Shown: piece by piece, positions 22,902-39,793 of the stretch | Layout of the letters: every line of letters begins with the position of its first letter | Numbering within the stretch: position 1 is the stretch's first letter | NCBI GenBank assembly: GCA_003132305.1 | Contig: PKXJ01000006.1 | Location: forward strand, 47,379-87,926 | DNA: 40,548 nt | Direction: 5' to 3' | Origin: Acidimicrobiaceae bacterium | Lineage (GTDB): Bacteria > Actinomycetota > Acidimicrobiia > Acidimicrobiales > RAAP-2 | The notes under the pieces: generated by a model | Told to the model about the DNA's origin: nothing | What the model saw: only the letters and a program-made list of their open reading frames with translations | Database searches by the model: none | Translations under genes and position numbers: made by a program

Positions 22902-23288
22902 TCAATTGGAAGCTAATCGCCACCCTCGATATTTCTTCAAGATTGATCGAGTTGGCCATTGTCTCTTTGGAAGGGGACGTTTTCCCAAGGGTTTGGGAGA
23001 GATGATACGCGCTGATATTTCTCCACCCGCTACAACATTGAGAGTACTTGTTGTGGGTTCGAAATACCAACCTTTTGAGCAGATGAATATCAGCTGTCCG
23101 GTTTCCCATCGAACACCGACGAGCCAACCGGGACAACCTGTGCTCGGGCACTTTCTCCGGCTTCCTGTGGTTCGACCTTCAATTGCTCCACTAAGGCTTC
23201 GAAATGTCAGACCCTCTTCGATGCCATTGTCACTAAAAGGAAGGTTCCGTTGGCACGGCCCGAGTTTTGAAACATCTACAATCGACAT
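22902..23288 (-). CDS. Small conserved-looking protein with CPGW zinc-ribbon-like motif
   Basis: A predicted 128-residue protein. CPSTGCPGWLVGVRWETGQ followed by FICSKGWYF holds three cysteines and several tryptophans in a pattern that looks selected and could bind zinc. Then come VVAGGEISARIISPKPLG and a C-terminal YRGWRLA. The opposite strand over the same bases is also open, but only this frame gives an ordered motif. It sits between the HNH nuclease (59 bp upstream) and the Mrr nuclease, all in one direction. The start ATG lacks a clear ribosome site. The function is unknown; a DNA-modification reader or nuclease partner is a guess from position. Confidence 0.55.
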   Translation of the reverse strand: MSIVDVSKLGPCQRNLPFSDNGIEEGLTFRSLSGAIEGRTTGSRRKCPSTGCPGWLVGVRWETGQLIFICSKGWYFEPTTSTLNVVAGGEISARIISPKPLGKRPLPKRQWPTRSILKKYRGWRLASN

Positions 23289-23346
23289 AAGTTAAAGCGG
23301 CCCCCAACGTATTGATAATTGATTGCGGTCATTCGGATCAGGGTAC

Positions 23347-24282
23347 TCACTTTTTGAATACGAAGTCTCGGTGATATTCGAGAAACCCCTCTTGGCGTCT
23401 GGTGAACTCTCCGACGTTCATTCTTAGATCGAGCTGCCACTTATTCACGACATCAGGTTTGAGAGTTGAACTTTTCAAAATGACGCCGTTTTTCTTAAAG
23501 GAAAGGTACCCGCGATCAAATAGATGGTCGACGTGCGGAGACAGCAACAACCCGTTGGAGCCATCAAGCCGCTCGGAATCATTCGACTGACTCCAAGGCT
23601 TAATATGACTCGCTCGAAGATGACGCTGTTCGGTAATTCCCGTTATTCGACAGTTCTTTTCTATATGGGCGACTTCCTTCTTGAAAAAACCCTGTCCTCT
23701 CCGAGCTAAGGAAAGAGCTCGAATTTCAGTAGGGCCAATGTCTGTTCTTGTACGAAGTCGCGAGTCCTCATCGTCGACCATGTCGTCGGACATTTCGAGG
23801 TCTCGTTCGGCCAGGCCCTCGACGGCAATCTCATTAAGGTCGACTTGACATGCACTCTTGTACAAAGAACCGAGATTCTCTGGAACGGAATAGAGGTACT
23901 CCATATTGACTCGACCTTGCTTGTTAATTGGCCCGTAGAGAGCGGGTCCTAATAGCTGATATTCGCTGAGCATTGTCTTGGGGTCAAAGGCGTCGCTGAG
24001 TTCTTGGAATTCGACGTCAACCAGCCAGCCATCTTCGTTCCAGTACTGGTTTGCGAATTCAAAGTCGGGTCGTGGGCAGGAACGTGCCATATTCATGACT
24101 ACACCGACGGCGTTGATTGAACCTCTGAAGTACGAAAAAATGCAATCTCCAGGTTCAGCGAGTAGCATCGAGTCGTAAGCGACGCGATGTCGATTGAGCT
24201 TGTCGAGTTTCGGCGACCACATGTAGCCGCCGGGAATTTCGTGCTGGTAAGTCCTGCCTTGATTGACCCACCAGTAATTCAT
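23347..24282 (-). CDS. HNH endonuclease with EVE-like N-terminal domain
   Basis: A 311-residue protein. The first 135 residues (MNYWWVNQGRTYQHE, GDCIFSYFRGSINAVGVV, YWNEDGWLVDVEF) resemble the EVE/PUA-like domains that read modified bases in type IV restriction proteins. A charged linker leads to the C-terminal HNH_2 domain: CRITGI (211-216), ASHIKPW (224-230), NGLLLSPHVDHLFDRG (243-258). H226, H250, D252 and H253 are the likely metal and catalytic residues. The expected role is cleavage of DNA with foreign modifications. It heads the leftward group that ends in Mrr, so the two type IV-like nucleases may be one layer of defence. The EVE assignment is by general pattern. Confidence 0.85.
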   Translation of the reverse strand: MNYWWVNQGRTYQHEIPGGYMWSPKLDKLNRHRVAYDSMLLAEPGDCIFSYFRGSINAVGVVMNMARSCPRPDFEFANQYWNEDGWLVDVEFQELSDAFDPKTMLSEYQLLGPALYGPINKQGRVNMEYLYSVPENLGSLYKSACQVDLNEIAVEGLAERDLEMSDDMVDDEDSRLRTRTDIGPTEIRALSLARRGQGFFKKEVAHIEKNCRITGITEQRHLRASHIKPWSQSNDSERLDGSNGLLLSPHVDHLFDRGYLSFKKNGVILKSSTLKPDVVNKWQLDLRMNVGEFTRRQEGFLEYHRDFVFKK

Positions 24283-24879: not shown

Positions 24880-25323
24880 ATGAAATCGAAAAGCTCCATA
24901 ACCGCCCACAAGGCGCCTCATCCCGCGTGGGAGTGCACTACATGGGCGATTGGAGCAGTTGGTCTCCCTTTGATTTTAATTCTCTGGGTTTGGAAATTCA
25001 AAAATGAACCATTTCGGCTACTTCTCAGCCAGGGGGAGCTTCTCCTTATAGCAACTTCCGCAATTGGCTCGACACTCGCAGCAGAATTATTGCTCCGAAC
25101 CGGAAAAGGCGGAGCCTTACGTGCAATGAGGTTAGTGATATTCGTCCTGATCGTATTGGATCTTCTCGGATACACGGGTATGTTGACATCAGATAAGACG
25201 GGAATCTCCAATGGCTCAATTCTTGCGTGCTCAATTCTTCTTGCAGCTTCACTCATCTGTGGCATCATTTCAACTTGGCTATACGCCACTGAGCGCAACT
25301 CAAGCCCGGAAATTGAATGGTAA
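24880..25323 (+). CDS. Four-helix membrane protein, kinase-linked, unknown function
   Basis: A 147-residue protein with four hydrophobic segments: roughly 22-40, 50-70, 82-101 and 112-135. The soluble ends are short. No enzyme motif is seen. ATG 24880 has AGGA 6 bp upstream. It is followed 9 bp later by a membrane-anchored protein kinase, so the two are almost certainly co-expressed and may form a membrane complex. The base composition is low in G+C compared with the left half of the window. I do not recognise the family; small multi-helix membrane proteins next to signalling enzymes in defence islands are often effectors, but that is only an analogy. Confidence 0.7.
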   Translation: MKSKSSITAHKAPHPAWECTTWAIGAVGLPLILILWVWKFKNEPFRLLLSQGELLLIATSAIGSTLAAELLLRTGKGGALRAMRLVIFVLIVLDLLGYTGMLTSDKTGISNGSILACSILLAASLICGIISTWLYATERNSSPEIEW

Positions 25324-25332
25324 GGATTCGCA

Positions 25333-26748
25333 GTGTTCGATGTTTTGATCTCAGGTGCGGCGGTGTTTTTGGCGGCTATCTCTATTTTAGTTCTTCAAAT
25401 TGAACGCAGGGCAATTCGTCGCGTTCGACTTGTGCAGCGAGAACAAAGGTCCTCGTACCAATTGGTTACGAGTTGGTATCGTTCGCAAGATCTTATTAAG
25501 GAGAGTCCTGAATTCATTCAGCTGCTTACCGAATTGGATTCATCCGCCAAATATTTGACTAATTTGACCCCCCTCTCTTTGACGAGAAGTCGTCTCGTCG
25601 GTAGGGCAATTGACAAGAGAAGTGGTCAAGCCGTCACGTTAAAGACGCTCATAGGGAAGGGAGTAGGCTCCGCTCCTGACGCCCGAGGTTTGTTTAATGA
25701 AGCCTTCATCCTTTCTCTATTGGGGGGTACGCGGAGCCCAAAATTGATCAGCGCTTTCAGCACTGAAACTGGTCGTGCAGTCGTCTTACGGGAGTTTCAG
25801 GACGGTGTCAGTTTGGATCGAATTCTTATCAGGAATTCCACACTAGATAAACGTCCTAGATATTCTGAGGTCAAGGATCTTCTGGAGTCAACATCATCTG
25901 CAATATCCGAAATACATTCCTTAGGTATTGTCCACGGTGACCTCAAACCCGCTAATCTGGTTGCGAATTGGAGGCCATTAGCCGACGGTGCACCATCTAT
26001 CTCTCCAGAAAGCGATGTAACACTCTTAGATTTCGAGTCCGCTGTTGTTCTTGATCCTGTTGGCGTTGCGGAATCGAGGAGCTTTCGAGGCACTGCGTTT
26101 TTTATGGCGCCTGAACGATATGCAAGTTCTTTGATTGGAAGATCTGCTGACGTTTATTCCATTTCTGCTTTAGCATCCCTTCTCCTCACGGGTCGGCCCG
26201 TGAGGCCAGGTCAGTCAGCCGGTGCGCGAATCGCTTCGCAACCTTTGAGAGACGCGCTCCGAAAGGGATTTAGCGTATTTATCGACGAGAGGCAATCCTC
26301 AATTGAGGATTGGATTAATGATGTCATCCCTGCAATAACTGCGCTTATCGAACGTGATGGTGATCAATTTGTTGATTGGCCTGTTTCCATGACCGAGTTT
26401 GCGAGAGAGGTCACATACCAAACCGCGACGGTTGACACCTCGACGAAAATCACTAGCAATTATCAGCAGGTTATCGAGTCATTGTTGTTAATGTCGCTCG
26501 AGCTTTCGGCAAGAAATACAGATGCGATTGTTCGTTCTAGTGCAGAATTGATATCCGCGTTTTACAATGATGCAATCGATATGAGACAACTCTATGCCAA
26601 GGGGAGCATTACTCCGGATCGGTTGAGAAAACGAATCCAGGACGCTGTTCTTGTACTTGATGAGAATAACCGCCATCGAGCTCACGTTGAAAATGAAGCT
26701 TTGGAACTTAAAATGCTGAACGACGAGCCGAATTCGCCATCGGATTGA
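25333..26748 (+). CDS. Membrane-anchored Ser/Thr kinase with DFE in place of DFG
   Basis: A 471-residue protein. An N-terminal hydrophobic helix (residues 3-21) is followed by about 60 residues of linker, then a protein kinase domain (about 85-350). K104 in VTLKTLIG is the likely ATP-binding lysine, E123 the helix C glutamate, HGDLKPANLV (201-210) the catalytic loop with D203, and FFMAPERY (256-263) the APE region. The Mg-binding DFG is DFE (233-235, LLDFESAV). The glycine-rich loop is not obvious. A helical tail of about 120 residues follows. HGD instead of HRD and DFE instead of DFG indicate a divergent but possibly active kinase. GTG 25333 has AAGGA upstream. The first gene of the pair encodes a four-helix membrane protein. 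Confidence 0.85.
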   Translation: MFDVLISGAAVFLAAISILVLQIERRAIRRVRLVQREQRSSYQLVTSWYRSQDLIKESPEFIQLLTELDSSAKYLTNLTPLSLTRSRLVGRAIDKRSGQAVTLKTLIGKGVGSAPDARGLFNEAFILSLLGGTRSPKLISAFSTETGRAVVLREFQDGVSLDRILIRNSTLDKRPRYSEVKDLLESTSSAISEIHSLGIVHGDLKPANLVANWRPLADGAPSISPESDVTLLDFESAVVLDPVGVAESRSFRGTAFFMAPERYASSLIGRSADVYSISALASLLLTGRPVRPGQSAGARIASQPLRDALRKGFSVFIDERQSSIEDWINDVIPAITALIERDGDQFVDWPVSMTEFAREVTYQTATVDTSTKITSNYQQVIESLLLMSLELSARNTDAIVRSSAELISAFYNDAIDMRQLYAKGSITPDRLRKRIQDAVLVLDENNRHRAHVENEALELKMLNDEPNSPSD

Positions 26749-27416: not shown

Positions 27417-28145
27417 GTGGTGACGATGACCTTGCAGGACACCAATGCCCCCAGGGCAGGCCATCGATTTGAGCCAACCCATGAATTGACACTTCATGAC
27501 GCAGCAATATCTGCCTGCGAAGTATTGCCAGGGGCCCATCGCGGCGTGCTAATCGTCAGGGAGATGGTAGGTCCGATCGGCATTCCAGATATGACGGCTC
27601 TAGTCGGCGATCCGGAGAATATGGAAGCACGAATGTTGTTGGACGTTCCTCCAATCCTTAATCAGGTTGACGCGGCCATCGTCGCCTCGATGAGCGACAA
27701 AAAGCCCCGCTCCACGGAAATGATCTCGGAGGCTCTCAAGTGGCCAATTGGCACGATTGTTAGACGGCTCCCAAACCTCGTCAAGATCGGCGCAATTAAT
27801 ACCAGAGGCGAAAATCGCTTCGTTCGTCCCACGAGTTTGCACCCGACGGGACGCTTATACGCCATCGAAGCAAAGGTCAATGACCGAGTTTCGGCGATTC
27901 ATCAGGCTCGATCTTACGGATCATGGGCAGACAGCTATGTACTTGTAATGGGACAACTGGGCGCTCGACCACTTCAAGTCTTATTGGATGATGTGAATTA
28001 TGACCGAGGCGGATTGATTGTGGATGGCCAGTGGATGAGAAGGCCAGTGATTCGACAGCACAGCGTCGCTCGTCGACTTTGGGCATCCGAGCATTTCTTT
28101 GCAGCGATTGCACAGAACAGTCACCAGCCTTCAGTGCGACCATAA
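27417..28145 (+). CDS. Putative PD-(D/E)XK nuclease with inserted winged helix
   Basis: A 242-residue protein not given a name here. GPIGIPDMTALVG (52-64) offers a candidate catalytic aspartate, D58, after a beta strand. RLYAIEAKVND (146-156) gives E151-x-K153, and IHQARSYGSWADSYVLVM (161-178) supplies the following helix with Q163 and the next strand, the usual order of a PD-(D/E)XK core. Between D58 and the ExK, residues 82-130 (VDAAIVASM, TEMISEALKWPIGTIVRRL, LVKIGAINTRG) look like a winged helix-turn-helix. So the DNA-binding unit appears to interrupt the nuclease fold. GTG 27417 is the start, with weak ribosome site. The 3' end overlaps the convergent unknown gene by 25 bp. The nuclease role is inferred from motif order only. 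Confidence 0.65.
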   Translation: MVTMTLQDTNAPRAGHRFEPTHELTLHDAAISACEVLPGAHRGVLIVREMVGPIGIPDMTALVGDPENMEARMLLDVPPILNQVDAAIVASMSDKKPRSTEMISEALKWPIGTIVRRLPNLVKIGAINTRGENRFVRPTSLHPTGRLYAIEAKVNDRVSAIHQARSYGSWADSYVLVMGQLGARPLQVLLDDVNYDRGGLIVDGQWMRRPVIRQHSVARRLWASEHFFAAIAQNSHQPSVRP

Positions 28146-29275
28146 AGTTCGAGACCCCCAGCGACACCGTTAATCCATTCACGTGCGCCAATAGGACTTC
28201 CAGTGTGACGTTGTACGCCTGGCCACTCCGCCCTCGCATTCGCGTAGAGAGTGAGTAGTCGACGATATCGCCGTTCGAAGTCCGGTTGCGACTCAATATC
28301 TTGGATGACCGAACTCAACACGGCGAGATGATGATCAAAGACTTCTCGCACACCTGGCGCAGGAAGCCCGCCCAATCGCGTTACTAATGCCGCATCTCGC
28401 GTCTCCAGGATCGTCGCCTCGTTTGCCGAGACAACCCCAAGCAAAACCTGCAACGTAGGTCTCTTGAACCAACCACCACCGGACCCGGCGGGTTCACGTG
28501 CGTCGTAATCATCGTACGAACACATTCTCTGACGTTGATCCCAACCGCTGCCTAAGGTGGTTGCTCCTGCGGCAATCGCTGGGAGTCCGGCCAAATCGCC
28601 GTGAGAGATATGAACGGGAACATCTTCGCTCAGCGCCCTGGCTGATCTACACAAACCATGAGCTTCGACTGGTCCGACAGAAACTGGCGTCGTCGTACTT
28701 GTTCTAACCACACTCAAAAACCACCCCGCCGGTTGCAGACTTGCCAGTGCCCCAATGTGAGCATCGAGCGCGGCGCCACTTTCCCAAAAGGGCACTGTGC
28801 CGGCGATCGAAAGCCAGCAAGTCGGATCGCGACGGATCGCCTCCTTGGCGAGATCAAAGGCCAACGCGCTATTACTGTCAAGTCCAGCATGTAAAAGCAC
28901 GGTTGGAGCGAGATGCGACGTTCCAAGCGCGTCTTGAACATCGAATACCTTACCCACGTGACCTTCGCGCAATTCTGGGGCAGAGAGGTCCCCTCGCGCA
29001 CCAGCCCACAAGTCGTATTCGTTGTAGTAGCGAAAGTCGCCTACTCCACCAATTTGCAATGCGTGAGTCATCGGATCAAACCAAACCTCGACGTTATTCG
29101 CTCTGAATTCTTCGGCTCGCTCCTCCGCTCGATGCTTTCGTCCTGCTCCATCATGATGTAGCCAGGGAGTCGCCCAGGGTGTTATGACCGTGCCCCGTGC
29201 CGTCCCATTCCGCACCGCGGTTGCTATCCACTCCACTAGAAACGATCTTGGGCTGTCTTCGATAAGCACGCTCAC
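28121..29275 (-). CDS. Unknown 384-residue protein coupled to a kinase
   Basis: I do not recognise this protein. It has no membrane helix or signal peptide. The sequence alternates hydrophobic strands and helices in a way that suggests a TIM-barrel-like fold: GTVITPWATPWLH (28-40), VEVWFDPMTHALQIGGVGDF (62-81), APTVLLHAGLDSNSALAFDL (123-142), TCWLSIAGTVPFW, GWFLSVV, and HISHGDLAGLPAIAAGATTLG. The conserved-looking D/H residues in FDPMTHA, HAGLDSNS and HGDLAG could form an active site. It starts at GTG 29275, overlapping the kinase stop by four bases (GTGA), so the two proteins are made together and may act together. It ends the long leftward gene string. Confidence 0.75.
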   Translation of the reverse strand: MSVLIEDSPRSFLVEWIATAVRNGTARGTVITPWATPWLHHDGAGRKHRAEERAEEFRANNVEVWFDPMTHALQIGGVGDFRYYNEYDLWAGARGDLSAPELREGHVGKVFDVQDALGTSHLAPTVLLHAGLDSNSALAFDLAKEAIRRDPTCWLSIAGTVPFWESGAALDAHIGALASLQPAGWFLSVVRTSTTTPVSVGPVEAHGLCRSARALSEDVPVHISHGDLAGLPAIAAGATTLGSGWDQRQRMCSYDDYDAREPAGSGGGWFKRPTLQVLLGVVSANEATILETRDAALVTRLGGLPAPGVREVFDHHLAVLSSVIQDIESQPDFERRYRRLLTLYANARAEWPGVQRHTGSPIGAREWINGVAGGLELYGRTEGW

Positions 29276-30171
29276 AGTTCCAACTCCAACGCCTCGACCA
29301 ACTTTCGTCCATTTATGAACCTTCGCGCTGGCTGAGGATGCAACATGCGTCGAACCAATTGCAATTGTGTATCCGAGAGGTCACCTCGGACTGAACCTAT
29401 GTCGATGATCTCAACTCGACTCAGACGCTTCAAGTAGTCAAGTTCATCGCCGAGGTATGGAATCGGCAGCTCACCCGTTAGAGCTTGATACATGAGGATT
29501 CCTACACCAAAGACGTCTGACGCTGGCATTGGGACTCCGGAATAGGCATTCAAGTGTTCGGGGCTTAGATAGCCAGGGGTCCCAGGTTGGCCCGCAACAG
29601 TCAGCCCGGACCGAAGCGTGTACCTCGCGAAGCCGAAATCCATGACCTTGTATATTCCGTCGGATAGTCGACGAACGTTGTTTGCACTCAGGTCCCTATG
29701 AATGACACCCGCGTCATGAGCGACTGCCAAACCTCCGGAAATTTGGTGGCCCATTTCTACCGCATCGGTCCAAGACCACCTGGCGCCAAAGTGCGATGAC
29801 AAATCCTTACCATCAAGAAACTCCTCAAGCCAGGCCGCTCCACGCACAGGAACACCTATGGTGACGAGGTCGGACTCAACTTTCACAATGTGTGGACAAT
29901 GGAGAGACTTCAGTAGATCCACTTCGCGTTCGGCCCTGGACAAAGTGGTTGGCGACGAACTTTTAATGGCAATGACCTTCATGATGAGATCGGTGCCGCC
30001 GCTCTTTACGTGCCTGACAGCCTTCTGACCACCTACGGACCCGACAGCATTCACGTCACTGACGCCAAGCGCTATGCACGCGTCGTCAATCAGTCCTTGG
30101 TCCACAACCGTCATGAGGCCACCATAATAATGCAGACCAACAATTGGGCACCTTTTGACGCTTGTCCACAT
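29272..30171 (-). CDS. Ser/Thr protein kinase
   Basis: A Hanks-type protein kinase of 299 residues, or 280 if it starts at the internal ATG at 30114. It consists of little more than the kinase domain. K65 in LIMKVIAIK binds ATP, HRDLSANNV (158-166) is the catalytic loop with D160, DFGFAR (178-183) binds Mg, GTPGYLSPEH (197-206) is the activation segment end, and D219 in ASDVFGVGILMY stabilises it. All key residues are present, so it should be active. There is no membrane helix or sensor domain. It lies 135 bp after the PLD-helicase and is translationally coupled to the 384-residue unknown. A kinase beside a methyltransferase and helicase recalls PglW in Pgl/BREX type 2, but PglW is much larger. 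Confidence 0.9.
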   Translation of the reverse strand: MWTSVKRCPIVGLHYYGGLMTVVDQGLIDDACIALGVSDVNAVGSVGGQKAVRHVKSGGTDLIMKVIAIKSSSPTTLSRAEREVDLLKSLHCPHIVKVESDLVTIGVPVRGAAWLEEFLDGKDLSSHFGARWSWTDAVEMGHQISGGLAVAHDAGVIHRDLSANNVRRLSDGIYKVMDFGFARYTLRSGLTVAGQPGTPGYLSPEHLNAYSGVPMPASDVFGVGILMYQALTGELPIPYLGDELDYLKRLSRVEIIDIGSVRGDLSDTQLQLVRRMLHPQPARRFINGRKLVEALELEL

Positions 30172-30205
30172 TGCCTAACCGCCAAATTCGCAGGTCAATG
30201 AAAAC

Positions 30206-30258
30206 CTCAACCGACGGCGATACTCTTCGCCGGAAAGCGCTTCGGATCCGCCGCCACT
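30206..30258. repeat. 53-bp perfect direct repeat, copy A (after helicase gene)
   Basis: This stretch is identical over 53 bp to 31034-31086, inside the helicase gene. Copy A lies between the helicase stop and the kinase start. The distance, 828 bp, is divisible by three, and the same reading frame continues here as a helicase fragment (SGGGSEALSGEEYRRRL) and stops at a TAG at 30177-30175. Confidence 0.95.
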
Positions 30259-30306
30259 CAGCATTTAGAACCTATGCAACTACGGGCCCATTCCTCGAAC
30301 TGAGTT

Positions 30307-33300
30307 TCACTTCAAGAGATTCACCGCAGTGGTTGCAGTGGTTAGTGGCCAGGATGAGGATGGAACTGGCTGGACCGCCATCCAGCACACCACCCGCACG
30401 TCCTCTCGCCGCACAGGTCGGAGCGGCTTAATTGGCTGCGGAATCGGCAATCCCGCGTCGGTGACAAAGAGGTCGATTGCCTGAACCTTTTTCTTAGGAC
30501 TGTCATCGCCTCGAACAATGCCGCGGATTGCCTTCACTACGGCGGTGTCCCATCGACCGTTGAGTTTCGCGAGAAGGTTATCTTGTTGGTCCAAGCCAAG
30601 GAAGTCACCATGTTCAGTCACAAGCGCATAAGCATCCCTGAGTGCCTTCTCGATCTTTGGCTGAAGGTTGGCCTTGTCAGTGAGGAATGTCCAGTCGGCG
30701 TGCACGTTTGCTTGAGCGATCTCCCAAGCATCGAATACCTTCTCGACGGCGGTGTCGCTGACCACTTGCACTCCGTGCGGCGTACCGGGGTCCGCTGCCA
30801 TCAAGCAAGTCAGAGTGTCGTCTGATATTTTTGGTCGTCCATCCTCGTCGATAAGAGGTTCCCACGTCTCGCTATCGACAACCACAAAGCGGAACCAAGG
30901 TTTGGGCTCGTCACCAATTCGCACACAGAAGACGTAGCCGGGCTGGGCCACCTTCAACGAAGTGAAGCCACTCCCCGCTCCAAAAGGAAGGCCCAGAATG
31001 TTGCGACGTCCATTCGATGTTGCGAGCGCGTCGCTCAACCGACGGCGATACTCTTCGCCGGAAAGCGCTTCGGATCCGCCGCCACTAATGAGAAGCGTCG
31101 CGTCCTCGTTGTAGATATCTTCGATATCACTGCGAACGTCGTGGAGCAGAACTTCAACGGTGGGATCAGCTACTTGATTGGGAAGGACGGCGCCGACGCC
31201 TACCGCAGCGTTCGCGTAAGCGATCTTTCGTTGAAGGGTTTCTTCGAGCCCAAGCAGTCGATCGAGGTCTTCTCCAGGGAAGAAGCAGTCGATCGATATC
31301 CGCTTGTGGGGTGATCCAATGCGGTCGATTCGGCCATGGCGCTGTACCAGCTTCATGGGATTCCACGGCAAGTCGTAGTTGACCATATGTCCTGCTTGCT
31401 GAAGGTTCACGCCTTCAGCAAGAACATCGGAGGTGACGAGGATGTCGAAACGGTCTTCCGTCTTCGCCGTCCCGTCCTCCTTGAGCTCACCGGCGGTGCG
31501 TGGACAGAATCCGGCAAGAATTTCGGCCCGCGCGAGTTGGCCCTCACTCCCCTGAGCGCCAAAGACAGCCGGAGCGAGTCGACCCCGATAGACCGCGAGT
31601 GGCGAGTCAAACGGAGCATCGTCGATGATCTGGGTCAGGCACTGGTGCACGTCCGAGACTGTGTCAGCGTACGTCGAAAAGATTATGACTTTCCGTCGTT
31701 CGCTCTCAGACAAACCGTCTCTATCGGGTCGGTCCCACTCCTCGGCGATGTCACTTAGAACTTGAGCCAGTCGAAGGAGCTTGGCATCTGGTCCATCCCG
31801 ACGGCGATTCACCGCAAGTCGGTAGAGGCGCTCAAAGAGCGCGATGTCACCAGCGACATCTATTTCCAATGTACCTCGATCGAATTCCTCGCTCGGCGCC
31901 ACCTGATCAGCACTCTCGTCGTCGAGTCCAGCGAGGAACTCTTCGACACTTTCTGCTTCTGACGAGGCATACTCCCGCAAGGCATCTCCAATCATGACGA
32001 AACCTCTTGAAAGGCCCCGTTGGAACGCACGATGAGAATCAATCAGCCGACGCAACGTGACCTCGATCGCAGCGGTCGACGACTCCAGCCGCTTGAGCAA
32101 CATAGACCTGAGGAGCCCTACGTTTGTAATTTGAAGTCGGTCGACTTCGTGGTCCCATCGATAGACGCTAGAGGCGAAGCGGCCGAGCGATAGTCGATTA
32201 GGATCGCGATCCGCTCCCGAGCGGATGACCAAGTGCTCGTCATCGCTGACCTCGAGGGCATAGATGACTTCGTCAGCAAGGTTGCGAGATTCGTCGTCGA
32301 GTTGGTATGTAATGCGATGCACCTCGGGCGTAGGAAACTCAACGTAAACGAGTTCGCCGACGTTGTTTCTAATCCGGTCGTTGGCGTAAGCCTGCTTTAT
32401 GAACCGACGAGTGCGCCTGACGGCCACCTTGTCCATCAAATCGAACAAGTGCTCCGCCGAGAGGGTTTCGGGATCCCGAGCTTGTGCTGACTTGATGTAG
32501 TCAATGACACTCGGAATTCCGATATTCGCAAACTGGGCATCGTTGCGTACGAAGTACCCAATCAAGGTCTGGAGGTCCCGAAGGCTGTTGTTTACCGGTG
32601 TCGCCGTCAAGAGCAACACCTTCTTTGGATGTTCGCCCCAGAGCAATCGAATCACAGCCTCGGCGGTGAGCGTTGCCGGATTGCGCAAGTTATGGGCCTC
32701 GTCTATGACGACCAGTGAATAGTCATCAAGGTCGCCCGGTCGAACGCCGGGCTTCGTCCCGTTGCGAACGTCATCGTAAGTGACGAGATCAACTCGGGCA
32801 GAAATCAAGTCGAACGCCTTCAAGAATGGCTCCCAGGTTGAGGTCTTCAGGGAGGCTGGCACGACAATCAAGGCCTTTTGGCGGTCCCGCTGTGTTACCT
32901 GTTTGATGAACTCACCAGCGATGAACGTCTTGCCGAGGCCAACCTCATCGCAGACGAGAACGCCGCCGAGCTCGTCGAGGATTCGTTGAGCCCGACGGAT
33001 CCCATCGAGCTGAAACGTTGTCACCGGAAGACCAACGTCGACCGCACTCTTATCGTCGTACTCGCCGTAGAGCTCATAGAGCATCCGAAGGAACACCACA
33101 CCCGGCGCGTGCTCCTGCCAACGAGATTCGTAAAGTGATGCGAGGTCGAACGGTTCGGAGTCGTCCCACAACTCGTTGTACCAGTCGATAACAAGTCCCG
33201 TGTGCTGACCAGACGGGTATCCCAAGTTCAGTTCCCGGTTCCACGACAAACCTGCGAGGGTCAAGTTAGAAGACCCAGCCAGCACTGCGGGGAGCATCGG

Positions 33301-33777
33301 ATGCTCTGCGATGTATGCCTTGCCGTGGAGAAAGCCCTTGGTGTAACGACGGACCTCCACTCGTGGTATTCCGTCGTCATTGGTCGAACGGAGCCACGAC
33401 ACGAGGCGACGTGCCGCGATGTCAGATTGGACTGTGAAACCCAGAAGATCGCGGTCCCGCTCCAACCCCTGAAGGTGTTCAGCGGCAGCGGCTTCAAACT
33501 TAATTGTTTGGCCGCGTTCTAACTGAGTACGGAACGGCTCGACCGGTTCAGCGCCGAGAAGGATCCGTACCCTCGGCGCTAGTTCCACTTCGTCGGCGAT
33601 CAGATCAAAGCCTTGAGGATTCATGTATGCGGTAGCGAAGGCCAACGTAGGTGCGTCGATGTACGCTTTGCGAAGACCTCCGAGAAGCCGGTTGATCTCG
33701 CTTGCGACGGTTTCGCCAGTGGCTAAATTGTTGGTCGCGAAAACTGGTGGGAACTGCGGCGCCACGTGATCGGTCAT
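30307..33777 (-). CDS. SNF2-type helicase with N-terminal phospholipase D-like nuclease domain
   Basis: A 1156-residue protein. The N-terminal domain is PLD-like: FLHGKAYIAE (149-158) carries the HxK and AGSSNLTLAGL (167-177) the distal part; only one full HxK is obvious, so it may act as a dimer. The helicase core has CDEVGLGKTF (276-285, Walker A), VVIDEAHNLRN (356-366, DEAH), LLTATPVNNSL (389-399), and later SDVLAEGVNLQQAG and RHGRIDRIGS of the second RecA-like lobe. A helical C-terminus follows. It probably moves along or remodels DNA and may cut it. ATG 33777 overlaps the methyltransferase stop (ATGA); the open frame to 33840 is a product of that overlap. It contains the second copy of the 53-bp repeat. 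Confidence 0.92.
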   Translation of the reverse strand: MTDHVAPQFPPVFATNNLATGETVASEINRLLGGLRKAYIDAPTLAFATAYMNPQGFDLIADEVELAPRVRILLGAEPVEPFRTQLERGQTIKFEAAAAEHLQGLERDRDLLGFTVQSDIAARRLVSWLRSTNDDGIPRVEVRRYTKGFLHGKAYIAEHPMLPAVLAGSSNLTLAGLSWNRELNLGYPSGQHTGLVIDWYNELWDDSEPFDLASLYESRWQEHAPGVVFLRMLYELYGEYDDKSAVDVGLPVTTFQLDGIRRAQRILDELGGVLVCDEVGLGKTFIAGEFIKQVTQRDRQKALIVVPASLKTSTWEPFLKAFDLISARVDLVTYDDVRNGTKPGVRPGDLDDYSLVVIDEAHNLRNPATLTAEAVIRLLWGEHPKKVLLLTATPVNNSLRDLQTLIGYFVRNDAQFANIGIPSVIDYIKSAQARDPETLSAEHLFDLMDKVAVRRTRRFIKQAYANDRIRNNVGELVYVEFPTPEVHRITYQLDDESRNLADEVIYALEVSDDEHLVIRSGADRDPNRLSLGRFASSVYRWDHEVDRLQITNVGLLRSMLLKRLESSTAAIEVTLRRLIDSHRAFQRGLSRGFVMIGDALREYASSEAESVEEFLAGLDDESADQVAPSEEFDRGTLEIDVAGDIALFERLYRLAVNRRRDGPDAKLLRLAQVLSDIAEEWDRPDRDGLSESERRKVIIFSTYADTVSDVHQCLTQIIDDAPFDSPLAVYRGRLAPAVFGAQGSEGQLARAEILAGFCPRTAGELKEDGTAKTEDRFDILVTSDVLAEGVNLQQAGHMVNYDLPWNPMKLVQRHGRIDRIGSPHKRISIDCFFPGEDLDRLLGLEETLQRKIAYANAAVGVGAVLPNQVADPTVEVLLHDVRSDIEDIYNEDATLLISGGGSEALSGEEYRRRLSDALATSNGRRNILGLPFGAGSGFTSLKVAQPGYVFCVRIGDEPKPWFRFVVVDSETWEPLIDEDGRPKISDDTLTCLMAADPGTPHGVQVVSDTAVEKVFDAWEIAQANVHADWTFLTDKANLQPKIEKALRDAYALVTEHGDFLGLDQQDNLLAKLNGRWDTAVVKAIRGIVRGDDSPKKKVQAIDLFVTDAGLPIPQPIKPLRPVRREDVRVVCWMAVQPVPSSSWPLTTATTAVNLLK
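31034..31086. repeat. 53-bp perfect direct repeat, copy B (inside helicase gene)
   Basis: Identical to 30206-30258. Here it encodes part of the helicase about 260 codons before the stop. Exchange between the copies would remove 828 bp in register and leave a shorter helicase ending in about ten new residues. Confidence 0.95.
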
Positions 33778-36700
33778 GTGAGATCTCCCAGTTGGTCGTA
33801 GAACTCGAGAGCTGCATCGAGGCGAGGCCGGAATGACCAACCTCGATGGAAGGTGGCAAAGATGTGGGACAACTGCGTTCGGCTAAGTCCGTATAGGTGG
33901 GCGACTAGGGCGTCAATCTCGGACTCAGTCGCCGCACGCTCCTGTGGGGTAACAGATCCAATAGGGACATCGATTGCACTTGCCCAACCGACGTAACGCT
34001 CGTCATGGGCGGCCAATCGTCCCGCCAGCTCGACGATGCGTCTACGACGAGGATCTGACTTCTCAGGTCGTGGAACCGGGATTTGGTCGAGTATCTCGAA
34101 AGTAAAGTGCAACTCGACCAAGCGGCGCGAGTACCAGTCGAACGGGATGCTGGACATTACTCCGAGGAGATATGCCTCGTCGACTTCGTCGCCACTCCTT
34201 TGTACCAGATACGGTGCTTGGTGAACAAGAACAATGCCCGGAGGTAACAAGCAACTCACCATTGTTCTGGTGTTATCAAACTTCGTCACATCTCGAAACG
34301 CAATCCTCGCCCTGTTCATAGGCAAGTCTTCACGTGAATGAATCTCGAGGCCGTGAAAGGCAGAGCGAGCGCTTGATGCCGAGTTCATTGTCTTTCGAAG
34401 AATGTGATCGATCGCAGCGGTCCCGGCGTAGGCATACGGTGGTCCAAAGTCTGGGTCGTAAAGATTGAACGTTGACCCGCTGAGCACGGGTATAGGTCCT
34501 TCTGGAACCTCAAGGTTCGTGCCGAAAATACTTCGGTCGTTCGTCGCGTCAAGTTCTCTGTATGGCCTGAACTCAAAATTCGTTGTGTTACTGAACGCCG
34601 GGGATGCACGCATCTGTCGAAAGGCCTCGCCTGAGAGTTTGTCTGGGATAAGTGGGAAAGCCGCGGTTCCCGTCCACGTTGCGAACTCTCCAGCTTTGAC
34701 GACAGTTTGCGAATCCCGCCCTTTGAAAAAGTCAGCTTGGCTGTAGAAGGCGCCCGCAAACCTGACCTCACGATCGCGTCCTCCACGTCGAATATTCACG
34801 AAAGCCGTTGTATAACTCGCGTGAACATTGTCGAAGACCCAGTGTCCGGCATTGACGGTGATGGCGACGCTGGAAAATGTACCAGCAGTCAGGATTTCTC
34901 GACGCCATTTCTCAGTTCCGGATCCACTTAATGCCCCCCGAGGAAGTACCAACCCGATTCCCGCACCGTCTCGTGCCAGTTGCCAATTTCTCCACGAGAA
35001 TGCTTTGTAAAGATCGATGTCACCGGACCCTATGCCAGGGTACGGACCAGCTGAGATCACTTGACGAGCTGCATTGGCTACGGCAACGTCTTCGTCGAAC
35101 TCATCGACTAGATCGGGTCGCTGAGATCGAAGCTCATTGATTCTTGCTCTGCGACGAGAAACGTTCATGCCTCGGATGCCAGGAAATCGGAGCCACCACC
35201 ACTGTTGCTCTTCGACTTTGAGTTTTTCCCACGGTGGGTTTCCAACAAGAACGTCGAAGCCACCATTATCGCGAAGAAATACCTCAGGAAAAAGAACCGG
35301 CAGATGCCCAGGATTTAACGGTGCAAGCGCGGACTGCGCTTCAGGTGTCGCCGCCGCCACACTGATCGCGCTCGGATCCTCACCCACAATGAGTGATCCT
35401 CGCCCGATGCGTTTCAGAATGGCTGCGTCGAAGAGGAGTTTCGCCTTGTGCGCTTCTTCGGTGGCCTTTCTCACTGCACGCGAAGCCGCCTGCGTTTCCT
35501 TACGGTCAACTTCGGGAAGCAGGGCAACATCAAGCAACATTCGCTGTGACGAACGTAGAGCGTCTTCGATTGGCCCATCGAAAAGGGTTGCCATGCCGTT
35601 ACGACCCGGGACGAGAACGTCAAGGGCTTCGTCAATCGACCCGATGCCGGTCAGGCTGTTCGCACAGACCAAATTGTGGTCCAAGCTCGACATCGGTAAG
35701 CCTCTGACAAATGTGTGTATCCAAATCGCGACTCGCGACAACTCGACGGCGATCGGATTTATATCGAGCCCGTACACGCAGCGCCGTGCAATCTGTCGGC
35801 GAAGAAGTGACGAACCTTCTGGAGGAACGCCCTCAGGATTGCCCATTGCTGCGAGAGCGGCATTACCGAGTACAACGATTTCATTTGCGACGCCAGGGAT
35901 CTGATGGCCATCCTCCTCTAGGAATGCCGCCATCTTCTTTTCGATATGGTCAATCGCCGAAGTAAGGAAGTGCCCCGAACCCATCGCAAGATCTGCAATC
36001 CGGAAGTCGAAGAAGAGCTCTGCCGCACCGGCTTGGTCTCCTCCGTCAAGAAGTACCCCGATCTTGGCAAGATGATCGTCGAGTGCCGGGTCTAGGGCTC
36101 GCTCAAGCAGGTGCTCAACAACAAACGAAGGTGTGAAGTAAGAGCCGGTGCCCTTACGTTGACCGCTGGTGTTGTGAAAGTAGACGTCGCCGGCTGCCGC
36201 AACGACATTATCGGCAGCCCCAGCGGGTAGCCACGTGCTTTCTCCGTCCAGAGTGAGGTCAATCTCGGCAAGACCCAAACTCGACTCAAGAAGCCCCTCA
36301 TAGATGGTGCCGAACTCGCGAACGCTCAGCGAGCGGAAGTCAATCGGGCCAATCTCACCGTCGTCCGACTGGTCGAGTAGCAAAGCCCTTAGACATGGAC
36401 CGATGACATTGTTGGTGATGCTTATCCTCTCAATGATCGCGCCATGCTCGTTGAGTTCAGGGTCCGAAGCGAAGAGGCCGCCGTTGTATGCCGGGATACC
36501 CCAAGCTCGGTCACCAGTATCGATGACCCTCCAGACCAGTGCCAGGTCGTCCCAAAGCGCACAGGATTCCGGATCGAATATCTGACCTGGGTTTTCGACG
36601 AGGTCCTTAGCAATCGTCTTTAGGGCATTTCGGTCGTACTTTTCGTTCTCTCCGTAGGGAAGTAATTTGCGGTCCTCCGCGTAGACCTGGAAAAGCATGC

Positions 36701-37910
36701 GGAAGAAGATTCGAAGCGTCAGTTGATAGGCAAGATTGAGCCCTTCAGCGTCCATGGCGTAGCCCATATCAGCAAGTTGCTCCGCGACAGCGACCGCGAG
36801 GCGGGGAACGATGTCCTCGTACACCTTGTCGCGCAATCGAGCACCGAGCGCCACCGCATACTGCGAGCTCGAGGCCATGATCTGAAACGCACTCCCACGA
36901 TCCACAAGTGCCGTAGCGGAGAAAATCAACGAAAGGTACCCAGCGTTCTCGCTCGTGAGCTGCGGAAGGTCTATCTCAAGGTAGGTCTCGGCCACGCCCT
37001 TGCGACCAACGCCGAGGTCGATTCGGGCGGGATAAAGGCGAAGTTGGCCACCTCGAACGAGGATGAGCCAAGATACGCCTTTCTGCTCGGCCATTTTGAG
37101 TCCATAGGCCACCGGCGAAATCGAGAAGCGCTGCGAATTGGCGTCGAACGTCTCTCGCTCGTTCAGCATGACGGCGATTGCCTCGGGACGTGGTCCCTTC
37201 CCAGTGAGAACCAGCGCGTGGGCACCCACATCACTGGTGGTGTAGCCCAAACGGCTGATGAGTTCATCCTCTCGGAGGCTAAGTATTCTCTTGGCCATGG
37301 CGCAGGCGTCCTCCCAATCGGCACGCTTTGGCACTCCCGTTCGTAGTTCATGGTTAGCGAAGAGGCCGGAGTTTTTGACACCCGGTATCGAGGTGGTGTC
37401 GAGTGACTGCAAGAGTCCCGTCAAACGCGACCTCGCGGCGACTGGATTGGCCTCGTCAAGCACGGCCTGTAGCAAACGTTCAGCTTGATCCAGAGCAACC
37501 GGTCTTACCGGTGCGCTTGTGGCGGCAGGACCGAAGATTGTGACTCGTCCATCCCCTAAGAGAGTGGCCAGTAGCACGGGTGTGACGCGCTGGTTCACCC
37601 GTAGGCCATGAAGTCGCTTCAGGCTCTGGAGACTGGGCTCACCTGGGGCAACGTAACGTGCCGTCGCAATCTCCATCGGTGCACTCGCTGAACCTCCCTG
37701 TGCACAGGTGTAAACGGAAATTGTTTCGAAGCCCGACGGCGTCCCACTGGGCCGTATCCAGTCGATCTCCTCTGTCGCTTTCAACTGGATTGAATTCACA
37801 GTCCAAGGGTAGAGGAGACCTCTGACGCAAGGTGGTTTCCACCAGTATCTCTCTCGATTCAACTCTTCAGACGTCAGCCACGAGGTTGCGCAACCGCCGT
37901 ATGAGCTCAT
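33774..37910 (-). CDS. Large N6-adenine DNA methyltransferase (Eco57I/PglX-like)
   Basis: A 1378-residue class I SAM-dependent DNA methyltransferase. Residues 1-500 include WLILVRGGQLRLYP (281-294), LEIDLPQLT and FFRMLFQVYAEDRKLLPY, a layout seen in type IIG and BREX-type enzymes; I see no PD-ExK nuclease triad. FGTIYEGLLE (533-542) and KGTGSYFTP (585-593, motif X) precede motif I, DLAMGSGHF (640-648), and motif IV, NPPWEKL (891-897), the mark of N6-adenine methylation. The C-terminal third should hold target recognition. I list ATG 37910, which overlaps a small upstream ORF (ATGA). ATG 37676, with GGGAGG about 16 bp upstream, is possible because residues 1-78 look atypical. It is followed by the PLD-helicase with a 4-nt overlap. 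Confidence 0.92.
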   Translation of the reverse strand: MSSYGGCATSWLTSEELNRERYWWKPPCVRGLLYPWTVNSIQLKATEEIDWIRPSGTPSGFETISVYTCAQGGSASAPMEIATARYVAPGEPSLQSLKRLHGLRVNQRVTPVLLATLLGDGRVTIFGPAATSAPVRPVALDQAERLLQAVLDEANPVAARSRLTGLLQSLDTTSIPGVKNSGLFANHELRTGVPKRADWEDACAMAKRILSLREDELISRLGYTTSDVGAHALVLTGKGPRPEAIAVMLNERETFDANSQRFSISPVAYGLKMAEQKGVSWLILVRGGQLRLYPARIDLGVGRKGVAETYLEIDLPQLTSENAGYLSLIFSATALVDRGSAFQIMASSSQYAVALGARLRDKVYEDIVPRLAVAVAEQLADMGYAMDAEGLNLAYQLTLRIFFRMLFQVYAEDRKLLPYGENEKYDRNALKTIAKDLVENPGQIFDPESCALWDDLALVWRVIDTGDRAWGIPAYNGGLFASDPELNEHGAIIERISITNNVIGPCLRALLLDQSDDGEIGPIDFRSLSVREFGTIYEGLLESSLGLAEIDLTLDGESTWLPAGAADNVVAAAGDVYFHNTSGQRKGTGSYFTPSFVVEHLLERALDPALDDHLAKIGVLLDGGDQAGAAELFFDFRIADLAMGSGHFLTSAIDHIEKKMAAFLEEDGHQIPGVANEIVVLGNAALAAMGNPEGVPPEGSSLLRRQIARRCVYGLDINPIAVELSRVAIWIHTFVRGLPMSSLDHNLVCANSLTGIGSIDEALDVLVPGRNGMATLFDGPIEDALRSSQRMLLDVALLPEVDRKETQAASRAVRKATEEAHKAKLLFDAAILKRIGRGSLIVGEDPSAISVAAATPEAQSALAPLNPGHLPVLFPEVFLRDNGGFDVLVGNPPWEKLKVEEQQWWWLRFPGIRGMNVSRRRARINELRSQRPDLVDEFDEDVAVANAARQVISAGPYPGIGSGDIDLYKAFSWRNWQLARDGAGIGLVLPRGALSGSGTEKWRREILTAGTFSSVAITVNAGHWVFDNVHASYTTAFVNIRRGGRDREVRFAGAFYSQADFFKGRDSQTVVKAGEFATWTGTAAFPLIPDKLSGEAFRQMRASPAFSNTTNFEFRPYRELDATNDRSIFGTNLEVPEGPIPVLSGSTFNLYDPDFGPPYAYAGTAAIDHILRKTMNSASSARSAFHGLEIHSREDLPMNRARIAFRDVTKFDNTRTMVSCLLPPGIVLVHQAPYLVQRSGDEVDEAYLLGVMSSIPFDWYSRRLVELHFTFEILDQIPVPRPEKSDPRRRRIVELAGRLAAHDERYVGWASAIDVPIGSVTPQERAATESEIDALVAHLYGLSRTQLSHIFATFHRGWSFRPRLDAALEFYDQLGDLT

Positions 37911-38134
37911 CTTCCAGATGAGATGACCACCGCCTCCCCCGGTCTTAATGACCTAACTAGGTCTGGCGCTCGCGAGAGTAAGTACTTGGCAGTGCGCGGG
38001 CCAGAACATTGTCCTACCGAGCCGGCGCATTGGGCAATAGACGGCGCCCCCTCAATCTCCCTTCGGGCGGAGGCGTCGGCTTTGAATTTACGTCTGGGTG
38101 CAACGTCACGCTTGAGCCTCCTCCCCGGCATCAC
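37907..38134 (-). CDS. Possible 75-residue ORF between membrane protein and methyltransferase
   Basis: A short arginine-rich frame that begins 23 bp after the upstream gene and ends in an ATGA overlap with the methyltransferase start. It has no recognisable domain. The spacing fits an operon gene, but the composition (many R, A, S) is what random frames in this DNA often give. It may only be the upstream part of the methyltransferase transcript. Confidence 0.3.
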   Translation of the reverse strand: MMPGRRLKRDVAPRRKFKADASARREIEGAPSIAQCAGSVGQCSGPRTAKYLLSRAPDLVRSLRPGEAVVISSGR

Positions 38135-38157
38135 CGCTGACCGCCGAATCTCCCGCC

Positions 38158-38805
38158 TCAGACAATGAAAAAACCCGGCTTTGCCCTCAAGATGGCGTCA
38201 ACATCGTCAACCTTGAGGCTCGCTCTCATCGCGTGTCCGAATGCAACGCACGTGCGTCCCAATTGGCGGGCGCACTCGTTGATTTTGGTTTCACTTTCGG
38301 GATCGTGTTTCAGCGGTTTCAAATGTTGAATCGCGGCCCGAACTTTTGCATTCAGGTCTGCGGACGCGTCAACTTTGAAATCAGGGGGGAGTGCAGTCGC
38401 AGCGACGATCAATTTTCCTACTGCGGCCACCACATCACCCACGCTCGTTATTAATACTTCGTCTCCTGTCCGCCATATCGTTGCCTGGGCATCAAGAATC
38501 ATCCCCTGCTCGATCATTAGATAATCGTTTAGTTCCAAGATGTCGACTGGTTTCCTGTGATGCAAGACCAAGTCAAGGCTTTCTCGTAGACCCGATCGAA
38601 CCTCCATGTTGATATGCAACGCTGCGGCCTTGAATAACAACCTTTGAGCACCTGAGACAATCTGCGCGCAAGCGGTCTTTAGTTCAAGAGTTCTAGCCTC
38701 AATTGCACGACGACGAGCGCGGTATGCGTCCAACCAGAACGCGCCACCGGTGGAGAGAGTCGCAGAGCCAAGTGCAGCCACTACCACTGCCCATGTGTCG
38801 GACAT
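38158..38805 (-). CDS. Membrane-anchored helical protein, 215 residues
   Basis: An N-terminal hydrophobic helix (about residues 5-25, AVVVAALGSATLSTGGAFW) is followed by a basic stretch (YRARRRAIEAR) and about 180 residues that look mainly helical. The basic residues after the helix suggest that the C-terminal part is cytoplasmic. I do not recognise a domain. It lies 16 bp after the 323-residue membrane protein and upstream of the methyltransferase, all leftward. Position and topology suggest that the pair forms a membrane complex serving the methyltransferase-helicase genes, but this is inferred only from the operon. Confidence 0.72.
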   Translation of the reverse strand: MSDTWAVVVAALGSATLSTGGAFWLDAYRARRRAIEARTLELKTACAQIVSGAQRLLFKAAALHINMEVRSGLRESLDLVLHHRKPVDILELNDYLMIEQGMILDAQATIWRTGDEVLITSVGDVVAAVGKLIVAATALPPDFKVDASADLNAKVRAAIQHLKPLKHDPESETKINECARQLGRTCVAFGHAMRASLKVDDVDAILRAKPGFFIV

Positions 38806-38821
38806 TGAAAAACGCCCCCTC

Positions 38822-39793
38822 TCACGACTGCGGACAACGTGTACAACCGTTGCCGCGCACGTAGCCGTCTAATTCGACGCGAAATTTGAGTTTGGAAAGT
38901 AAATCGCGTTGACACTTGTCGTGCTCGCGCCTTTTTTCGAGATCTCCGTACTCTCGAAGTTCGTGCCAATCCATCATCTGATTAACGAACTGTTGCGTTC
39001 TAGAGCGAATTGCCTCGACAGTGAGTGCCATCCTCGTTGGATCAGCTTGAGCAACGCTCAATCCTTCGCGAGTCATAATGAGCCCCTCGAGAAAATGAAT
39101 ATCATCGTCGACGACGTTGTCTCGCCAGTAAATCGTGTACGGAAGGTTGAGCGACTGTTCTCTCGCCTTCTGTTTTGCAATGTCTAGAAATTTCTTGAAT
39201 GCTTCCCTCGCGAACGGTGGTCCGAGCGTCAACGTATTCATCGTTGCGTCGAATCGATCGGTCAACTGATGCTCTCGAAGAGTCGATTCGTAAACCAGAT
39301 TGTCCCACTCGTCAATTAGCGGTTTAAGTTCCTCAAAGTGACCAACGATGACTGACTTGTCGGTGTCAATCTCGAAAGGTATCTCACGACCACTCTCTAC
39401 CGCTGATTTCGCGGTTTCAAGTATTCGCTTAATCGTTGCAGCATGCTCAGATTTCACGGGTTCGCTCGAACGTTCCGCTGCAAGCTCTTTGACTCGAAAC
39501 CGCAGTTCATTTAACTGAGTTACGAGAGCGCTTCGTTGCTCAAACGAAGCACGATATAGCGAGAAGAAGAACGTCCCAGAAGTCACCACCACGAGTACGG
39601 CTACGAAAGGTAACGCGGCCCACCAAACATGATCTGAGACGGTGGCTCCTGCCGGTGGGCCGATGAGGGCACCTAGCACGGCTGACGCGATGGGGAGGAC
39701 GACGACGACAAGGACAAACCCGCGTAAGTGCTCACGCGCGCGTCGCCGTGCCCACAACCAAGTTGAGCCTTGGGGGTCTTCGCCTCTCTCCAT
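38822..39793 (-). CDS. Two-helix membrane protein with coiled-coil region, 323 residues
   Basis: Two hydrophobic helices (about 26-45 and 57-80) form a hairpin, followed by a heptad-like stretch (EQRSALVTQLNELRFRVKELAAE, described here by positions 85-107) and a long helical cytoplasmic part. The C-terminus ends with a CxxC (GCTRCPQS). No enzyme motif is seen. ATG 39793 is preceded by a region with no other gene, so this is the first gene of the leftward string reaching to 28121. Two adjacent membrane-anchored helical proteins at the head of a methyltransferase-helicase operon are unusual. They could sense or respond to infection at the membrane; the sequence gives no direct proof. Confidence 0.75.
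   Translation of the reverse strand: MERGEDPQGSTWLWARRRAREHLRGFVLVVVVLPIASAVLGALIGPPAGATVSDHVWWAALPFVAVLVVVTSGTFFFSLYRASFEQRSALVTQLNELRFRVKELAAERSSEPVKSEHAATIKRILETAKSAVESGREIPFEIDTDKSVIVGHFEELKPLIDEWDNLVYESTLREHQLTDRFDATMNTLTLGPPFAREAFKKFLDIAKQKAREQSLNLPYTIYWRDNVVDDDIHFLEGLIMTREGLSVAQADPTRMALTVEAIRSRTQQFVNQMMDWHELREYGDLEKRREHDKCQRDLLSKLKFRVELDGYVRGNGCTRCPQS

Follow-up and report, generated by a model that had tools for sequence, protein, structure and literature searches.

The window analysed here is a stretch of 40,548 nucleotides from an Acidimicrobiaceae genome (2.9 Mb, 95% complete). Its right-hand part carries a string of minus-strand genes at the end of a contig, which a preliminary description had put forward as a single new defence system made up of two membrane genes, a methyltransferase, a helicase, a protein kinase and a 384-residue protein. 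A new candidate system is indeed present, but it is made of different genes, namely the kinase gene, the gene for the 384-residue protein, and a nuclease gene on the opposite strand that had been left out and that overlaps the end of the gene for the 384-residue protein by 25 bp. These three genes (27417-30114, here called the triad) appear to form a portable candidate immune module, with a putative role in defence. The 384-residue protein has a predicted fold like that of tRNA-guanine transglycosylase (TGT). We call it TGT-fold, and not TGT, because no sequence method links it to these enzymes. The features are listed in Table 1.

Table 1. Genes of the triad and of the remainder of the string, in window coordinates.
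Feature	Position	Strand	Evidence
Predicted PD-(D/E)XK nuclease	27417..28145	+	E23, D58, E151-x-K153, Q163; winged helix inserted between D58 and E151
384-aa TIM barrel, predicted TGT-like fold	28121..29275	-	AlphaFold2 pLDDT 78.3, pTM 0.81
Hanks-type protein kinase (Pkinase)	29272..30114 (ORF opens 30171)	-	PF00069 2.6e-27, 96.3 bits over cut-off 31.7
PLD (HKD)-SNF2 helicase, DrmD-like	30307..33777	-	PF00176, PF00271; PADLOC C3a139 HKD+Snf2 4.3e-41
Type IIG-like adenine methyltransferase, DrmMI-like	33774..37910	-	PADLOC REase_MTase_IIG PDLC03620 1.3e-242, residues 135-1368; PF07669 Eco57I
Small ORF, 75 aa	37907..38134	-	Between membrane gene and methyltransferase gene
215-aa protein, weakly hydrophobic stretches	38158..38805	-	No family match
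323-aa protein, hydrophobic N-terminal segments, SLATT-like	38822..39793	-	NCBIfam SLATT_1 18.2 bits, cut-off 41

All six genes of the preliminary description were recovered among the open reading frames (ORFs) of the window, at their positions and all on the minus strand, and so were the tight junctions. The two membrane genes are 16 bp apart, 23 bp lead on to a small ORF, ATGA overlaps link the small ORF to the methyltransferase gene and the methyltransferase gene to the helicase gene, and a GTGA overlap links the kinase and TGT-fold genes. The second ATGA overlap places the helicase start at 33777 instead of the TTG (33840) given in the list of ORFs, and the starts of relatives place that of the kinase at a conserved ATG (30114). 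The distance from helicase to kinase, given earlier as 135 bp, is correct for the kinase ORF as it opens, but becomes 192 bp because alignment with the relatives favours the start at 30114. When this gap was scanned with a simple consensus, nothing resembling a promoter turned up on the minus strand. Around the triad, scanning for promoters and terminators gave 3 and 3 sites, compared with 1.8 and 2.8 in shuffled sequences. The window gave no match to Rfam families and no tRNA gene. The string stops 755 bp short of the contig end (40548 in the window, position 87926 of the contig).

The gene neighbourhood of the methyltransferase-helicase pair was followed in other genomes. Relatives of the helicase occur in 15 other genomes at E <=1e-60, among 396 genomes of the phylum, and on six plasmids. 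Ten of the genome regions were examined (the other five genomes are G163, with a 3.1-kb contig, G042, G141, G270 and G345), together with three of the plasmids, two actinobacterial and one haloarchaeal. One region (L029, from genome G058) is uninformative, as its contig ends at the helicase. In the nine with room for a neighbour, a methyltransferase gene always lies beside the helicase gene; the matches are to pieces only for the methyltransferase in L031 and L034 and for the helicase in L034. Using tblastn at E 1e-3, no relative of the kinase, the TGT-fold protein or the membrane proteins was found in any of the ten genome loci or the three plasmid loci, nor any relative of the convergent nuclease in the ten genome loci. 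Elsewhere, then, the pair lacks the triad and membrane genes in 12 of 12 informative loci, in bacteria and one haloarchaeon. It is considered self-contained because it is seen without these genes, and 30307-37910 is, as judged from sequence, a stand-alone two-gene system resembling restriction-modification (R-M). The preliminary description had itself named the occurrence of the pair without the kinase and membrane genes as the result that would refute one combined six-gene system, and this is what was found. The division of the string into independent units is very highly probable.

The triad was complete in all 17 loci that were followed. A search with the single 384-residue sequence found its gene in one other genome of the 396, accompanied by relatives of the kinase and of the convergent gene; at this locus an integrase and a primase were seen nearby by eye, and there is no methyltransferase-helicase pair. 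Six triad loci, one of them already known, turned up when 84,980 species genomes were scanned by pattern; a Dietzia plasmid (L012) and a profile search of 394 genomes (L057 and L058) supplied further ones. A profile of the convergent protein brought in three divergent triads (L079-L081), which had been missed by the single-sequence search of the same phylum, and their TGT-fold proteins led to L085-L088, on plasmids of Kineococcus, Arthrobacter, the haloarchaeon Natribaculum and the betaproteobacterium Polaromonas. The set consists of the window, L006-L012, L057, L058, L079-L081, L085-L087 and L088 (L005 and L010 are the same locus, counted once, and L011 is a 3.7-kb contig with almost no flanks). 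Fifteen are Actinomycetota loci, one is on a betaproteobacterial plasmid and one on a haloarchaeal plasmid. The nuclease profile matched 48 genomes: two of them hold triads already known, the next three in rank were followed up, and most of the 43 others match in the winged helix only. The kinase of a Streptomyces anulatus plasmid (33%) was tried as a triad member and set aside, its annotation showing no triad.

The triads fall into three classes. In classes A (10 loci) and B (4 loci) the kinase gene is followed by the TGT-fold gene, with the nuclease gene convergent, and in class C (3 loci) nuclease, kinase and TGT-fold genes run in one direction. With starts set by conservation, the genes for the kinase and the TGT-fold protein share 4 bp at their junction in 14 of 17 loci; they are separated by 8 bp in L086, 2 bp in L087 and 10 bp in L088. 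The catalytic residues of the kinase (K, E, HRD, N and D) and the active-site residues of the nuclease are both kept in 17 of 17. Mean pairwise identity is 35% for the kinase, 28% for the nuclease and 26% for the TGT-fold protein, and the pairwise identities of the three proteins co-vary, with r values of 0.98, 0.95 and 0.96 over 16 loci (L088 was entered afterwards) and of 0.96, 0.94 and 0.94 within class A. None of 5000 label permutations gave values as high in either comparison. The three genes form one conserved unit, and it is probable to a high degree that they are also one functional unit. The best PADLOC models for the triad kinase are those of PD-T4-6 (118.6 bits), which is a single-gene kinase system. 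These models are unspecific, many of them also matching another kinase of the window (25333-26748), and the two conserved partners of the triad kinase argue against its being PD-T4-6.

No relative was found in viral contigs for the class A and class B TGT-fold profiles, the nuclease profile, L012 or L081, nor for the helicase, in pattern-based scans that reach close relatives only. A tblastn search for the 384-residue protein in phages gave no match.

The convergent gene is predicted to encode a PD-(D/E)XK nuclease, and relatives are present in the 16 other triads. The AlphaFold2 model (pLDDT 84.0) aligns in VIA-align with 3dnx (Z 11.3, 3.4 A over 131 residues) and with the type IIS enzyme PaqCI (Z 9.9, 3.8 A over 142 residues), and its insert at residues 82-138 resembles winged helices, with Z of about 9-10. 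Foldseek alone gave no match to the model at E 0.001. In the family libraries (Pfam, PADLOC 2023, NCBIfam 2026 and PHROGs) the window protein has only two weak PADLOC matches, both to the winged-helix part.

The TGT-like fold of the 384-residue protein is a prediction from its model. When 998 Foldseek candidates were realigned with VIA-align, all 50 of the entries listed were TGTs, with Z of 17.7-19.1; the best is an archaeal TGT, 1iq8_A (Z 19.1, with a root-mean-square deviation of 3.5 A over 290 residues). In a viral structure library the best matches are generic TIM barrels, and a viral queuine tRNA-ribosyltransferase stands at rank 5. The window protein has no match in the four family libraries, nor have the TGT-fold proteins of L079-L081 in Pfam or PADLOC. 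A match of the 384-residue profile to a C-type lectin in the PDB (E 1e-4) was set aside as due to repeated helical stretches. The three classes appear to be connected by profiles, with class B tied to class A by way of class C: the class C profile finds L012 (4.3e-11) and L080 (5.1e-10), and the class A profile finds L087 (3.5e-7; E values for 17 sequences). A shared fold alone shows no function.

We read the stretch as two independently occurring modules plus apparently orphan membrane genes, in which the triad is a kinase-gated nuclease acting as a second line of defence, and we give this reading as a whole a probability of roughly 0.45. A switched effector with a recognition part is proposed because the active sites of the kinase and the nuclease are intact and the third protein is less conserved. 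Infection or DNA damage would activate the kinase, for example when a methylation-based first line has made its cut or has itself been blocked. The kinase would phosphorylate the TGT-fold protein, the nuclease or both, and phosphorylation would free the nuclease, which would then cut DNA. The TGT-fold protein, being the least conserved of the three, may recognise nucleic acid or restrain the nuclease. We infer the role in defence, the direction of the signal, the substrate and the role of an inhibitor, and the gating mechanism itself is put forward tentatively. A wider idea, which we consider less likely than not, is that the triad represents an immune module of a new class that plasmids and integrative elements have carried through bacteria and haloarchaea, and in which a TGT-fold sensor (or base-exchange enzyme) serves a kinase-switched nuclease as a second line shared by BREX, DISARM, type IIG-like and type III systems.

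The TGT-like fold would also suit a minimal base-exchange restriction system with a logic like that of Dpd, in which the TGT-fold protein would exchange or mark a guanine of the host's DNA or tRNA, whatever is unmarked would be cut by the nuclease, and the kinase would regulate. In TGTs the zinc site is arranged as CxCxxC...H, and class B proteins have C-x-C-x2-C followed after 15-18 residues by His in 4 of 4. The motif is absent from the window protein, from class A (10 of 10) and from both class C proteins tested; the His column corresponds to H315 of the window protein and is kept in 16 of 17. Three acidic residues (D7, D67 and D227) are invariant in class A (10 of 10), as might suit an enzyme. 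The catalytic nucleophile of TGT is an Asp, D280 in Zymomonas TGT, but its position appears to fall on G242/S243 of the window protein, in a motif alignment made by eye. Few residues are common to all classes, unlike in a conserved enzyme. The window's genome contains no TGT, and its only QueC match covers 57 residues (above the Pfam cut-off) in a 668-residue frame, so that no supply of preQ0 is evident. With this, and with no PADLOC match for the 384-residue protein, the triad is not assigned to Dpd. The protein resembles TGT and DpdA in its predicted fold and, in class B, in the zinc-type motif; it differs in having no sequence match to them, in the missing zinc cysteines of class A, apparently in the nucleophile position, and in a host genome with no evident preQ0 pathway. 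TGT homologs are described in Dpd and in a BREX-related system, in the passages available of PMC12839542. Base exchange is on balance unlikely.

The triad is repeatedly close to DNA methyltransferase systems. Such a system is no more than about 1.5 kb away in 6 of the 17 loci, a raw count set against no background rate, and the triad may thus be functionally linked with defence based on methylation. In Pseudonocardia (L006) the DISARM genes DrmMI, DrmA, DrmB and DrmC precede the triad, with 83 bp between the end of DrmC and the kinase gene. In L081 the triad is located between a PglXI methyltransferase and an SNF2 helicase of the BrxHI/BrxHII models, downstream of BrxC, with overlapping ends. 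A type III methyltransferase lies alongside the triad in L080, and an N6 methyltransferase, split by an insertion sequence element, beside that of Dietzia (L012). In Natribaculum (L087) the methyltransferase is DrmMI/type IIG-like and situated 1.4 kb upstream; the window pair is the sixth. In the other 11 loci no such system was seen within 1.5 kb, their flanking ORFs having been scanned in part and L011 having hardly any flank. The G+C content at third codon positions (GC3) of the triad is below that of most flanks in L081 (where it is much lower), L087 and L007, which is taken as a sign of recent arrival.

Other neighbours of the triads were recorded. Around the triad in L081 (L081:2743-16481) is a BREX type 3-like operon with BrxC/DUF6079, a DUF4062-RecG-like gene, PglXI and the BrxHI/HII-model helicase, PglZ not being among the genes sought. 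Directly after the Natribaculum triad (L087:8201-8890, plus strand) is a gene that by eye resembles one for a metallophosphoesterase (PADLOC PDC-S10 1.9e-7), and its product might act as a phosphatase alongside the kinase. Upstream of the triad in L008 (L008:35-7710) are a gene of 541 codons with a weak PADLOC pAgo match and a PDC-S28 helicase gene. A HEPN-like gene (L079:9111-9821, plus strand; PADLOC RTasHEPN, 5.3e-7) adjoins a class B triad, and just past the Kineococcus triad is a gene annotated as a nuclease-related domain protein (L085:7415-8299, plus strand).

This proximity would suit a regulatory cassette, in which the kinase and a winged-helix protein would control the neighbouring methylation-based system and the nuclease fold would serve DNA binding. 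The window nuclease model has a winged helix, several relatives have matches to helix-turn-helix families, and there is a precedent in CapK/CapS, described in the available text of PMC13373217 as controlling adjacent immune operons. A purely regulatory role is rather improbable, given that the PD-(D/E)XK residues are kept in every locus, that the Polaromonas nuclease (L088, 169 residues) is the core without the winged-helix insert, and that in 11 of the loci no such system was seen close by in the flanking ORFs scanned.

Five of the 17 triads are on named plasmids (L012 and L085-L088), and integrase, resolvase or relaxase genes lie near L006, L009 and L058. The triad might thus be a maintenance (addiction) module of mobile elements, or serve competition between plasmids, and not be directed at phages. 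Its positions beside DISARM and within a BREX type 3-like operon do not favour this, and a kinase and a recognition protein exceed what addiction needs; we regard it as improbable. One six-gene system, for which only the single direction and tight junctions in the window speak, has next to no chance of being correct, with the modules separate in the other loci examined and the membrane genes apparently orphan.

Several observations weigh against the kinase-gated nuclease or against parts of it. The TGT link comes from one predicted model, for which Foldseek ranks other TIM barrels at the top and the first TGT at rank 42, and sequence and profile comparisons (Pfam, PDB profile searches and hhalign) give no match to TGTs. 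The Pfam TGT family does not match the window protein or seven aligned relatives at E up to 10, and hhalign of several TGT-fold profiles to actinobacterial TGTs gave 0.08-0.67. Class A lacks the zinc cysteines, as described above. Classes A and B show little direct similarity (best profile E 0.0011, blastp 0.83, hhalign 0.03), and the window protein is not found by the class C profile (E 1.4). In classes A and B the nuclease gene runs against the other two genes, which is unusual for a set resembling toxin-antitoxin. In genomes G086, G144, G237 and G305 there are partial matches to the nuclease profile beyond the winged helix, which leave room for solo nucleases. In a tree of the kinases, two outgroup sequences are interspersed with those of the triads, and a single origin of the kinase is therefore not shown. 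The split into modules is not perfectly clean either: there is a 78-residue helicase match near L058 (E 5.8e-4), a different SNF2 helicase, of BREX type, is inside L081, and the methyltransferase near the Natribaculum triad is a 27% relative of that in the window. The count of methyltransferase neighbours, as a raw number, belongs here too.

The published system with the closest logic that was found is VapKSC/CapKS. According to the available text of the paper (EMBO J 2026, PMC13373217), single-stranded DNA activates the kinase, which in turn sets free a repressor or a nuclease, and 88 of 443 capKS are immediately downstream of a predicted R-M system. Both arrangements have a small kinase with a partner and a nuclease, or with a winged-helix partner, and are often beside R-M or immune operons. 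The proteins described there are a GHKL kinase, a STAS partner and a PIN nuclease, whereas the triad has a Hanks-type kinase, a TGT-fold TIM barrel and a PD-(D/E)XK nuclease, and no GHKL, STAS or PIN domain was found in the triad proteins. Our best guess is that the two are analogous and unrelated. Fusions of restriction-nuclease and S/T/Y kinase domains are reported for defence proteins PglW (BREX type 2) and DndF in the passages available of PMC12839542; these are large proteins with a NERD nuclease and further domains, unlike the separate small proteins of the triad with their TGT-fold partner. The same passages describe TGT homologs in a HerA/BREX-related system, and do so without the kinase and nuclease of the triad. 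In the parts available of the open-licence literature searched, including PMC12839542, PMC12458937, PMC3874165, PMC10853773 and PMC13092281, the triad was not found described.

If the triad is an immune module, its signalling logic of kinase, TGT-fold protein and nuclease is absent from the libraries searched, and it would be a portable plug-in, seemingly taken up independently by different methylation-based systems. It raises the testable question of whether front-line R-M-type systems, once breached, hand over to kinase-gated nucleases. The results also suggest that some plasmid gene pairs annotated as serine/threonine-protein kinase and hypothetical protein are parts of triads. The nuclease gene on the other strand is annotated as a transcriptional regulator in Kineococcus and as a hypothetical protein in Dietzia, and is not annotated in Arthrobacter FB24 or Polaromonas.

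For the methyltransferase, the motifs DLAMGSGHFL and NPPW were read by eye, and its nearest models are DrmMI of DISARM and type IIG R-M enzymes. The nearest model for the helicase is DrmD, with 141 bits against an NCBIfam cut-off of 610; it differs in an N-terminus with a segment like phospholipase D (PLD), where the PLDc_2 match is below cut-off (21.9 of 27 bits). The pair differs from DISARM in these points, in occurring alone elsewhere, and in that no DrmA or DrmB gene was recognised nearby. The preliminary description had excluded DISARM and BREX, and we agree: for the nine proteins scanned from 25.3-39.8 kb, the models listed (up to 25 each, the helicase having 19 weaker ones) include neither DrmB nor DrmC, and DrmA only as a weak match of the SNF2 helicase, and PglZ and BrxC/PglY are absent from those listed for the window proteins scanned. 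The pair is also present on plasmids of Paenarthrobacter, Rhodococcus and the haloarchaeon Halorubrum (L082-L084), where the methyltransferase is annotated merely as a hypothetical protein.

Both membrane genes are apparently orphan and part of neither module, going by sequence searches. The 323-residue protein has a single match, of 54 residues, in 375 other genomes; the 215-residue protein has none in the triad and pair loci examined, whole genomes not having been searched separately for it, and neither has plasmid relatives. The small ORF has no family match and no hydrophobic segment, and nothing marks it as a gene.

The proteins scanned in the left half of the window belong to ordinary metabolism. 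The G+C content drops from about 21 kb, where nuclease genes start (Mrr-type, then HNH), followed by a first kinase and then by the string. With the Mrr and HNH genes and the R-M-like pair present, the setting in a defence island, as originally described, is borne out. The Mrr-type restriction gene (PF04471, PADLOC PDC-S02/mREase_IV) adjoins the HNH gene at 21845-24282 on the minus strand, in DNA of lower G+C. The other Hanks-type kinase of the island (471 residues, 25333-26748, plus strand) is preceded by a 147-residue protein (from 24880) that has no Pfam or PADLOC match, and 24880-26748 is possibly a separate kinase-based system.

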